Assembly (NCBI RefSeq): GCF_040362765.1
Contig: NZ_BAABWK010000001.1
Span: 1,403,501-1,467,500, forward strand
DNA length: 64,000 bases
Source of the DNA: Pyruvatibacter sp. HU-CL02332
Lineage (GTDB): Bacteria > Pseudomonadota > Alphaproteobacteria > CGMCC-115125
Direction: 5' to 3'
The notes under the pieces are model-generated. The model did not search any database, was not told where the DNA came from, and saw only the letters and a list, made by a program, of their open reading frames with translations. A program made the position numbers and the translations under genes. This document shows positions 17,264 to 19,204 of the stretch, piece by piece; the first letter of the stretch is position 1; every line of letters starts with the position of its first letter.

Positions 17264-17284
17264 AAAAGAGGAGTGGATGTTTTG

Positions 17285-17665
17285 ATGACATCAAAATACC
17301 GAACGTTGTTGGTGTGGATAATTAGCTCAACTCCGCTATTCACGGTTATGGCCTTGTCCCAAACAACGGAGGGAACGGTTGCATCAGTGCTCGCCGCTCT
17401 CAATGCAGCTGGATTTGCATACTTCATGCTTGCAAGAACAACGTTTAGCCGATGGATCGTCACACTCATCTTGACACTCATCGCCCTTGCGTTTGCCGGT
17501 TCCCTTACATTTTTTTCCGTGATTGCTTTCTCAGACGACGCACTCATCGTCGTTGAAAATCAGGACGCTGTTTTGAGAAGCAGTATGGCCTGGGCGTTTG
17601 GCTTCATACTACTCGAGATTGCGTGCATCATCTGGTTTCGAAGAGTAGCCAGGGCCTCAACATAA
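17285..17665 (+). CDS. Small hypothetical four-helix membrane protein
   Basis: The frame encodes about 126 residues with four hydrophobic segments (LLVWIISSTPLFTVMAL, ASVLAALNAAGFAYFML, WIVTLILTLIALAFAGSLTFFSVIAF, AWAFGFILLEIACIIWF). No family is recognised. AAGAGGAG at 17265-17272 serves as ribosome site. It favours the ATG at 17285 (12 bases) or the TTG at 17282 over the GTG at 17273. Base composition is more AT-rich than the flanking tsaD and gpsA, which suggests an accessory insertion. Its stop lies within the T-run of the opposing terminator. Confidence 0.6.
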   Translation: MTSKYRTLLVWIISSTPLFTVMALSQTTEGTVASVLAALNAAGFAYFMLARTTFSRWIVTLILTLIALAFAGSLTFFSVIAFSDDALIVVENQDAVLRSSMAWAFGFILLEIACIIWFRRVARAST

Positions 17666-17696
17666 AAAAATGGGGCCGCACCTGAAATGCGGCCCC
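17663..17696 (-). terminator. Strong intrinsic terminator for the tiny-gene transcript
   Basis: On the minus strand GGGGCCGCA and TGCGGCCCC (plus 17688-17696 and 17672-17680) form a perfect 9-bp stem with a 7-base loop, followed by ATTTTTTTAT. The T-run is on the minus-strand side, so it ends transcription coming from 18166 downwards. Confidence 0.88.
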
Positions 17697-17703
17697 AGTT
17701 GGA

Positions 17704-17757
17704 AACCCTTCACCTGTGCCCGGGGATGTGAGCGTCAGCAAAGGGAGGAAGAAGGGT
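17704..17757 (-). ncRNA. 3'-UTR hairpin exposing CUUCCUCCC
   Basis: ACCCTTC and GAAGGGT (minus strand; plus arms 17751-17757 and 17705-17711) can close a stem whose large loop contains TTCCTCCC (complement of 17743-17750), an anti-Shine-Dalgarno motif. It lies just before the terminator. The pairing is seen in the sequence; function as a small RNA domain is inference. Confidence 0.45.
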
Positions 17758-17758
17758 G

Positions 17759-17812
17759 CGGACAGTCCGGCCAGGTCCCCGGAGGAGGAGAGGGACCCGA
17801 CAGGTCTGTCCG
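17759..17812 (-). ncRNA. Two-tier hairpin with a CUCCUCCUCC loop
   Basis: An outer 7-bp stem CGGACAG/CTGTCCG (17806-17812 with 17759-17765) encloses an inner 6-bp stem GGTCCC/GGGACC (17792-17797 with 17774-17779). The 12-base apical loop on the minus strand is TCTCCTCCTCCG, almost wholly anti-Shine-Dalgarno sequence. This resembles in principle the CCUCCUCCC-loop small RNAs known from Rhodobacterales, but the host gene differs. It could be a 3'-UTR-derived regulator of translation. Confidence 0.55.
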
Positions 17813-17821
17813 AATTCTTGA

Positions 17822-17965
17822 TTAGATGACGTTTGCCGCCTGTGCGAGCAGCGCCACCACATAGGCAGCCAGAACGGCTGTGCCCACGAACACACCGACT
17901 TTGGTGCTGAGTGAGGTAGGCAGAAGCTCTGGGAGCTGGTTGGTCTGGTTTGCTGTGTTGCTCAT
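17822..17965 (-). CDS. Tiny single-pass membrane protein B (47 aa)
   Basis: The 47-residue product has a polar N-terminus (MSNTANQTNQLPELLPTSL) and one membrane helix (VGVFVGTAVLAAYVVALLAQA). GGAGACGACC directly upstream is a fair ribosome site. The helix resembles that of the second tiny protein encoded just upstream: AAYVVALLAQ against AVYAVALIAE. This shared pattern and the terminator 130 bases downstream support a real gene. No family is recognised; a small regulatory subunit or a membrane-stress peptide are both possible. Confidence 0.6.
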   Translation of the reverse strand: MSNTANQTNQLPELLPTSLSTKVGVFVGTAVLAAYVVALLAQAANVI

Positions 17966-18033
17966 TGGTCGTCTCCATCACACGCTGTTTCAGCGAAACG
18001 GAAATTCAGGATCATCCTGTGGTGAGATTTTGG

Positions 18034-18050
18034 CTGACGGGAGGCGTCAG
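18034..18050 (-). ncRNA. Hairpin with CCUCC loop overlapping the stop of tiny gene A
   Basis: CTGACG and CGTCAG form a perfect 6-bp stem with a 5-base loop that on the minus strand is CCTCC. The stop codon of the upstream tiny gene (18047-18049) is inside the stem. It is the third CCUCC-loop structure in this one inferred transcript. Confidence 0.5.
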
Positions 18051-18166
18051 ACAATTACGCCGCGGGTCATGACTTCAGCGATCAACGCCACTGCATAAAC
18101 AGCGACTGCCACAACCGGCAGATGGCGACTGATTGGACTGGAAAGTCTGAATGATGCGTACCGCAT
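18047..18166 (-). CDS. Tiny single-pass membrane protein A (39 aa)
   Basis: The 39-residue product has a basic N-terminal part (MRYASFRLSSPISRHL) and a membrane helix (PVVAVAVYAVALIAEVM). TTGAGGG lies 6 bases before the ATG. It is about 80 bases upstream of the second tiny gene on the same strand and shares its helix pattern, so the two look like tandem paralogues. No known family is recognised. Confidence 0.55.
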   Translation of the reverse strand: MRYASFRLSSPISRHLPVVAVAVYAVALIAEVMTRGVIV

Positions 18167-18201
18167 GATGTGCCCTCAATTCCCTAGCTGGTGCCCCCAA
18201 G

Positions 18202-18261
18202 GCCCCTATGACCTGGATGCGAACACCACCGGACCCCGTCCGGCTCACTCGATATAGGGGC
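18202..18261 (-). promoter_or_regulatory. Structured 5' leader of the tiny-gene transcript
   Basis: An 8-bp stem GCCCCTAT/ATAGGGGC (18254-18261 with 18202-18209) closes about 44 bases that hold a second perfect hairpin CCGGAC-GGG-GTCCGG (18229-18243). It begins about 35 bases before the start of tiny gene A on the minus strand. A structured leader is suggested; ligand or protein control is not known. Confidence 0.4.
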
Positions 18262-18277
18262 ACTCTAAATGAAAAAC

Positions 18278-18303
18278 AATGAACGCTTCGCAAATTGTTC
18301 ATT
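18278..18303. promoter_or_regulatory. Inverted repeat upstream of the tiny-gene transcript
   Basis: AATGAAC (18278-18284) and GTTCATT (18297-18303) are perfect 7-bp arms with a 12-base spacer, in the expected promoter region of the tiny genes. A weak minus-strand promoter (TTGCGA, 17 bases, ATTTAG) overlaps it. It could be bound by the TetR protein encoded immediately upstream. Confidence 0.35.
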
Positions 18304-18482: not shown

Positions 18483-19133
18483 TCAGCCGGTCTTCTGGAC
18501 ATTGTCTTCGTCGGCCTGCGGGCGTTCACCGCCCACAAACAGGGTGCGATCCGGGCATAGCCCGCCCAGCACCAGGTCAAAAACCCCGGACAGTTCCCTC
18601 TCGAGATTGTCCAGCGTCAGCCGCGACCAGAGCTGCGGATAGCTGAACTTCATGGTGGCGGACTGAATCATCTCCGCCGTGAAGTTCACATCATTGGTGG
18701 CGAACTCGCCCAGCTCGCGGCCATTGGCGATGATCTCCATCATGATGGAGCGTTCCCGTTCCAGCATGTCCGTGGAGAATGTCGGCCGTTCCGCTGATAC
18801 CGTGTGTGCCAGCTCGATGATCTTGGGATCTTTTTCAAGGTTCGTGTAGGTCATGCGCAGCTTGCCAAACAGATAGTCCCGCATGGCCTGCGTGGCGCTC
18901 TTGCCCGGTGCACGGATGGCTTTGGCAAGCTCTTCCATGGTCTCGACCGTCGCCCGGCTTGCAATTTCCTCGGCAAGATCGAGCTTGCCCTGAAAAAAGC
19001 GATAGAGATTGCCCGGTGACATGTCACAGTCCCGCGCGATCTCAGCCATTGTGGTCTTGCCGTACCCGTAGTGGAGAAACCGCTCCCGCGCCGCCTCCAA
19101 TATACGTTCCCTGATGTCGTCTTTTTCTGTCAT
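18483..19133 (-). CDS. TetR/AcrR family transcriptional regulator
   Basis: The 216-residue protein has the TetR DNA-binding domain: RILEAARERFLHYGYGKTTMAEIARDCDMSPGNLYRFFQGKLDLAEEI at about residues 9-57. A ligand domain with no obvious relatives follows. The ATG at 19133 gives the canonical TetR N-terminus; a TTG 36 bases upstream is possible. It is divergent from gpsA, and the gap contains TGAAT-N12-ATTCA. Downstream on the same strand lie the two tiny membrane genes, which it may control. The inducer is unknown. Confidence 0.88.
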   Translation of the reverse strand: MTEKDDIRERILEAARERFLHYGYGKTTMAEIARDCDMSPGNLYRFFQGKLDLAEEIASRATVETMEELAKAIRAPGKSATQAMRDYLFGKLRMTYTNLEKDPKIIELAHTVSAERPTFSTDMLERERSIMMEIIANGRELGEFATNDVNFTAEMIQSATMKFSYPQLWSRLTLDNLERELSGVFDLVLGGLCPDRTLFVGGERPQADEDNVQKTG

Positions 19134-19204
19134 GACCTGCGAGTGTAAGGTGCGAGAATGAATAATCAACGAACCATTCAGTCAAAACAGGTTTCATCCC
19201 CCCA

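Follow-up and report, generated by a model that had tools for sequence, protein, structure and literature searches.

A TetR-linked membrane micropeptide unit with a structured 3′ end in a marine alphaproteobacterium

The minus strand of a marine alphaproteobacterium, read from position 18303 to position 17664 of the window (the whole 64,000-nt stretch of DNA analyzed), raises the question of whether a short, highly structured transcript serves to encode peptides, to act as a regulatory RNA, or both. The preliminary description of this DNA had pictured a compact single transcript with a structured leader, two membrane peptide genes, three CCUCC-loop hairpins and a terminator, and the fit of one promoter, two genes and one terminator (Table 1) is that of a single transcript. 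Sequence comparison supported this unit and its promoter, and the two-tier hairpin and the terminator both proved real. The leader, however, had been begun too far upstream: the stretch 18303-18251 corresponds to operator and promoter DNA, so that the transcript would be nearer 580 nt. The 644-nt region as a whole had an MFE z of -3.3 relative to shuffles, and the Rfam search at gathering cut-offs returned a tRNA as its sole match. The preliminary description did not include the adjacent TetR gene or its operator, nor did it recognize that the two peptides share an ancestor and are part of a class-wide module.

Table 1. Features of the micropeptide locus, in window coordinates.
Feature	Position	Strand	Remarks
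TetR-family regulator gene	18483..19169	minus	5′ of micropeptide unit, same direction; divergent from gpsA
Palindromic operator AATGAACAATTTGCGAAGCGTTCATTG, candidate TetR site	18277..18303	minus	Overlaps -35 box
-35 hexamer TTGTTT	18274..18279	minus	Sequence and conserved spacing to -10
-10 hexamer TATATC	18251..18256	minus	17 nt after TTGTTT; predicted transcription start ~18244
5′ leader hairpin CCGGACGGGGTCCGG	18229..18243	minus	Kept in 4/4 genus members
Micropeptide 1, 39 aa, single TM, MRYASFRLSSPISRHLPVVAVAVYAVALIAEVMTRGVIV	18047..18166	minus	SD GAGGG
Inter-peptide hairpin CTGACG-CCTCC-CGTCAG	18034..18050	minus	Begins at/overlaps micropeptide 1 stop codon
Micropeptide 2, 47 aa, single TM, MSNTANQTNQLPELLPTSLSTKVGVFVGTAVLAAYVVALLAQAANVI	17822..17965	minus	SD GGAG
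Two-tier hairpin, loop CUCCUCCUCC	17759..17812	minus	Loop keeps CCUCCUC across genus
Near-invariant element CACCCUUCUUCCUCCCUU...GGUGAAGGGU	17705..17758	minus	Two competing helices
Intrinsic terminator, GC-rich stem 17697-17671 and T run	17664..17697	minus	Convergent with tsaD; kept in 4/4 genus members

Two membrane micropeptides of one family

Both open reading frames had a Shine-Dalgarno (SD) site and encoded one hydrophobic stretch. Among the four genus members, pN/pS was 0.16-0.20 for the 39-aa peptide, except for 0.38 in the closest pair, and 0.08-0.49 for the 47-aa peptide. These sequence comparisons indicated that both evolve as coding sequence under purifying selection, in agreement with their earlier reading as genes.

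Comparison of the sequences further indicated that the 39-aa peptide and the 47-aa peptide belong to a single family and descend from a common ancestor. The aligned micropeptides had in common the motif LxxYxVALxxQ/E near the end of the single TM helix; its polar Tyr and Gln/Glu, located within and next to that helix, are conserved. Their N-termini were mostly positive (mean +1.3 versus 0.0), which by the positive-inside rule suggests an N-inside topology. In the following, families of the class are numbered, f1 being the window's own genus. When the window's family was left out of the training, the HMM recovered in the window's genome (G000) the 39-aa peptide at E 3.5e-5 and the 47-aa peptide at E 7.6e-5 among 3768 frames, and held-out HMMs recovered both at E 1e-6 to 1e-4. 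Such held-out tests succeeded for f10, f126 and f100, were weak for f19, f4 and f123, and failed for f92; the peptides of f43 lay mostly outside the loci searched in this test.

The micropeptides downstream of the operator described below were 29-52 aa in length, with one to three per locus. Strong matches to the family HMM across the class were almost confined to the TetR/operator loci and to f43, in which the peptides occur away from TetR, behind an operator-like palindrome, in three or four tandem copies (L149, L150 and L151). In the f43 genome G171 the tandem set was convergent with tsaD. Class searches with the genus-only alignment of each peptide gave no credible match beyond the genus, and the homologues beyond it were reached through ar14-like matches in f19 and then through the TetR gene. 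No entry matching the family was present in Pfam, NCBIfam, PHROGs or the PDB; assignment of the 47-aa peptide to DUF5665 was rejected (17.3 bits versus a cut-off of 27). A public Candidatus Phaeomarinobacter contig encodes a 62% identical 47-aa peptide.

The TetR gene, its operator and the class-wide module

The product of the gene 5′ of the micropeptide unit belongs to the TetR regulators, with both Pfam domains above their cut-offs (TetR_N, PF00440, 1e-13, 51.2 bits; TetR_C_27, PF17935, 2e-12, 47.5 bits). Its PDB matches were only remote TetR relatives, e.g., 3f0c, DarR and QacR. In two f19 loci (L034 and L045) a TetR gene was followed by the palindrome and promoter seen in the window, a single small TM peptide gene, hairpins with CCUCC and a terminator; because this order matches that of the window, 385 class genomes were searched with the TetR protein. 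At an orthologue threshold of E below 1e-35, orthologues were identified in 41 of the 385 Alphaproteobacteria sampled.

The operator palindrome, which terminates in TTG, had a single match to its pattern in the window and 0 in 100 shuffles. A 33-nt matrix derived from 18 sites located an operator 18-571 nt beyond the stop codon of TetR in 32 of the 41 orthologues, with scores above 20 relative to a shuffled maximum of 3.6, and 14 of these 32 sites were outside the training set. In addition, 27 of the 32 had a TATAT-like box 16-17 nt after TTGnnn. The strict palindrome pattern was found in 25 of the 33 genomes searched from the TetR-orthologue set, about once per genome and nearly always at the TetR locus, against 2 matches for its reversed control. 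Inspection by eye revealed no equivalent operator upstream of the TetR gene itself. The arrangement, an inverted repeat that is conserved and overlaps the neighboring unit's promoter, would fit a local repressor site, and based on these sequences TetR most likely represses the micropeptide unit through the operator. Loci of TetR relatives with other genes downstream (L093, L097, L098 and L070) were also considered. The operator precedes other genes in three relatives, NAD-binding/NmrA-like genes in G288 and G196 and the gene of a Tat-like protein in G030, and the TetR regulon is thus not always one of micropeptides. In G007, a TetR relative is followed by a LolA gene, without the operator.

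Comparison across the class indicated that the constant core, located between tsaD and gpsA, consists of a TetR gene, then the operator and promoter, then one to four micropeptides with a single TM each; it is this module, and not the CCUCC hairpins, that is constant. Micropeptides accompanied the operator in most of the 32 loci, and most loci with flanks to compare had gpsA in divergent orientation on the 5′ side of TetR and tsaD in convergent orientation on the 3′ side of the peptides. The locus was present in all four genomes covering the order (G000-G003). In f10, TetR was found in 21/21 genomes and the operator with peptides in 19/21; in f40, three genomes had TetR directly against tsaD, without operator or peptide. 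In the TetR tree, which has long branches, f1, f19 and f10 grouped together with support of 97/96, and f4 and f123 lay close to them.

Around the window locus we recognized the TsaD-GpsA-YciI-EVE / HemC-HemD neighborhood. HemC/HemD-TsaD-GpsA-YciI-EVE is a known alphaproteobacterial neighborhood (PMC7641849), and the gene surroundings are the same, whereas the unit of TetR and micropeptides, antisense between tsaD and gpsA here, is absent from the neighborhood as presented in the available part of that source. No published description of the module was found in the open-licence literature. A micropeptide family absent from the searched databases, with a likely dedicated switch, spans many alphaproteobacterial families. 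Annotation usually skips peptides this short, and for that reason their function has gone unasked; having roughly a single operator per genome makes the TetR regulator easy to test.

CCUCC-type hairpins at the 3′ end

The window contains 128 CCTCC/CTCCC blocks, of which only 8 are within stems of at least 8 bp, and two of those 8 are at this locus, an enrichment beyond what chance would give. Over 28 loci, CCTCC/CTCCC was in hairpin loops 24 times, compared to 6.0 ± 2.3 times in dinucleotide shuffles and 0 times on the reverse strand. Hairpins with CCUCC or CUCCC loops occurred 3′ of the peptides in three neighboring families and, more weakly, in two more. When the flanks were shuffled around fixed CCTCC/CTCCC motifs, the blocks located in stems were 21/34 in f10 (2.2 shuffled), 8/13 in f19 (0.5 shuffled), 4/10 in f4 and f123 together (0.5 shuffled), 3/8 in f1 (0.75 ± 0.9 shuffled, a weak excess alone) and 0/7 in other families. 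Among the 19 f10 genomes with operator and peptides, 16 had such a hairpin, with unrelated stem sequences. Hairpin stems were replaced and pyrimidine loops retained, well above shuffled controls.

Within the genus, the stems of the two-tier hairpin were replaced in G003 and G002 and the CCUCCUC loop was retained. The inter-peptide CCUCC hairpin, correctly placed by the preliminary description, was found in G000, G001 and G003 and lost in G002. The third stem fared less well: no covariation was seen in its 7-bp ACCCUUC/GAAGGGU helix, and an equally good 9-bp helix, which uses the same 3′ strand and has two one-sided changes, competes with it and buries the CCC. Covariation cannot reveal the fold of this element, as it is nearly invariant. 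Compared across relatives, the loops were kept amid changing stems and recurred in homologous loci of other families, in support of the preliminary description, but they were not fixed in every hairpin or locus, and f126, f92, f43, f100, f146 and f55 had peptides without CCUCC hairpins. The many loci that keep peptides and have no such hairpins indicate that the core does not require them. The hairpin trait was clustered on the TetR tree (3 changes versus 12.9 for shuffled labels), a pattern suggesting that the micropeptide module is the older part and that the hairpins were gained afterwards. Because related peptide loci occur with and without CCUCC hairpins, the module lends itself to studying by comparison how the 3′ end of an mRNA becomes a regulatory RNA.

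Based on analogy with characterized RNAs, an anti-SD role of the CCUCC loops is plausible. There is a sizable, if lesser, chance that they have no riboregulatory role, being pyrimidine-loop hairpins for 3′-end stability or RNA processing, and that only the peptides matter. The families that lack the hairpins are consistent with this, as are the alternative folds of the third element and the predicted status of the anti-SD function. However, the strand-polar enrichment and the retention of loop identity across unrelated stems argue against it, as does NfeR1, in which this motif has been tested by experiment as an anti-SD seed (PMC10746234).

Relation to known RNAs and proposed mechanism

The ar14/NfeR1 RNAs (SmelA075/A099 in Sinorhizobium) have several hairpins with CCUCCUCC anti-SD loops, variable stems and an intrinsic terminator (PMC10746234, PMC3927594). 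The window locus resembles them in its anti-SD-type loops, variable stems and terminal terminator, whereas ar14 is a stand-alone 123-nt non-coding RNA and the hairpins here come after two peptide genes with a TetR-linked operator. The ar14 model (RF02344) aligned over its full length (1-123) at 17809-17667 on the minus strand with 23.1 bits, below the cut-off of 58.8, which was exceeded in no sampled class genome, all matches being sub-threshold. Three hairpins each with a CCUCCUCCC loop, as in ar14, were not found: the CCUCCUCC loop occurred only in the two-tier hairpin, the third element carried UUCCUCCCUU and the terminator loop carried none. CcsR1-4 of Rhodobacter are processed from the 3′ UTR of the small-protein mRNA of ccaF1 (DUF1127) (PMC8625941), and the Rfam name of the family derives from the CCUCCUCCC motif. 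The likeness is that of an RNA at the 3′ end of a small-protein mRNA; the CcsR host protein, however, is a DUF1127 RNA-binding protein and here it is a TM micropeptide, neither peptide having DUF1127. The CcsR1 score at the locus was 15.2 bits (RF02791, cut-off 65.3) and that of MmgR/suhB 23.6 bits (RF00519, cut-off 41).

A bona fide MmgR/suhB RNA (71 bits) was located at G000:C1:745441-745518 (L026), so that this sRNA family is represented separately in the genus. RNAs with CCUCC loops 3′ of DUF1127 genes, mentioned in the preliminary description, were also observed in the class genomes searched; at L032 (G025:C1:245431-245585, minus strand, with upstream sequence) a DUF1127 gene is followed by a long, CcsR-like tandem array of CUCUCCUCCUCCCU-loop hairpins. 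A 3′ UTR of this type was also found with a different protein class, at L053 (G141:C118:5445-5532, minus strand), where a Phasin_2 gene (86 bits) is directly followed by CCUCC-bearing hairpins and a terminator.

By score the 3′ end is not ar14, CcsR or MmgR; by analogy it may work like these RNAs. The full-length ar14 alignment, the sub-threshold CcsR1 and suhB matches and the retention of loops while stems change could also mean that the transcript is in essence an ar14/CcsR-type small RNA with anti-SD action in trans, its peptide ORFs being incidental or minor. We consider this improbable, as the scores are far below gathering, the true MmgR is elsewhere in the genome, and the peptides are under purifying selection and conserved more widely than the hairpins. 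A parallel in organization is VcdRP of Vibrio, in which one RNA encodes a 29-aa protein, which binds citrate synthase, and has a C-rich seed that pairs with translation start sites (PMC8672173). The window RNA would likewise combine small proteins and a C-rich pairing region; the VcdRP sequence is unrelated, and function at the window locus is only predicted.

The reading that we favor, with reasonable though not high confidence, is a locally controlled, TetR-switched micropeptide operon with a structured 3′ end acting as a 3′-UTR riboregulator. The TetR protein, made just upstream, would hold the palindrome over the -35 box and keep the promoter shut until relieved by a signal molecule, which is probably hydrophobic or linked to membrane stress. 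Derepression would yield the ~580-nt RNA, from which the two related micropeptides would be translated; each would span the inner membrane once, most likely with its N-terminus inside, and we infer their target to be either a membrane protein or the membrane. The CCUCC-type loops of the 3′ end would pair with SD sequences, either in cis or, as CcsR and NfeR1 do, in trans. If this is true, the RNA hairpins could silence other genes by covering their ribosome-binding sites. More tentatively, we speculate that TetR-switched tandem membrane micropeptides (LxxYxVALxxQ) form an undescribed class-wide family, and that in one branch their mRNA acquired anti-SD hairpins and became a dual-function RNA coupling membrane remodeling to translational silencing.

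It is unlikely that the micropeptides are membrane toxins, as in type I toxin-antitoxin systems, with TetR holding them in check: they are small, hydrophobic, present in up to 3-4 tandem copies and under a repressible promoter, but their constant chromosomal position between tsaD and gpsA in different families, with a vertical pattern, the conserved polar residues of the TM helix region and the lack of any antisense RNA gene noticed argue otherwise.

Between tsaD and the micropeptide terminator there is also a 130-aa predicted membrane ORF (17273-17665, plus strand), with no Pfam match, which looks specific to G000 and G001 based on tsaD being closer in G003 and G002.
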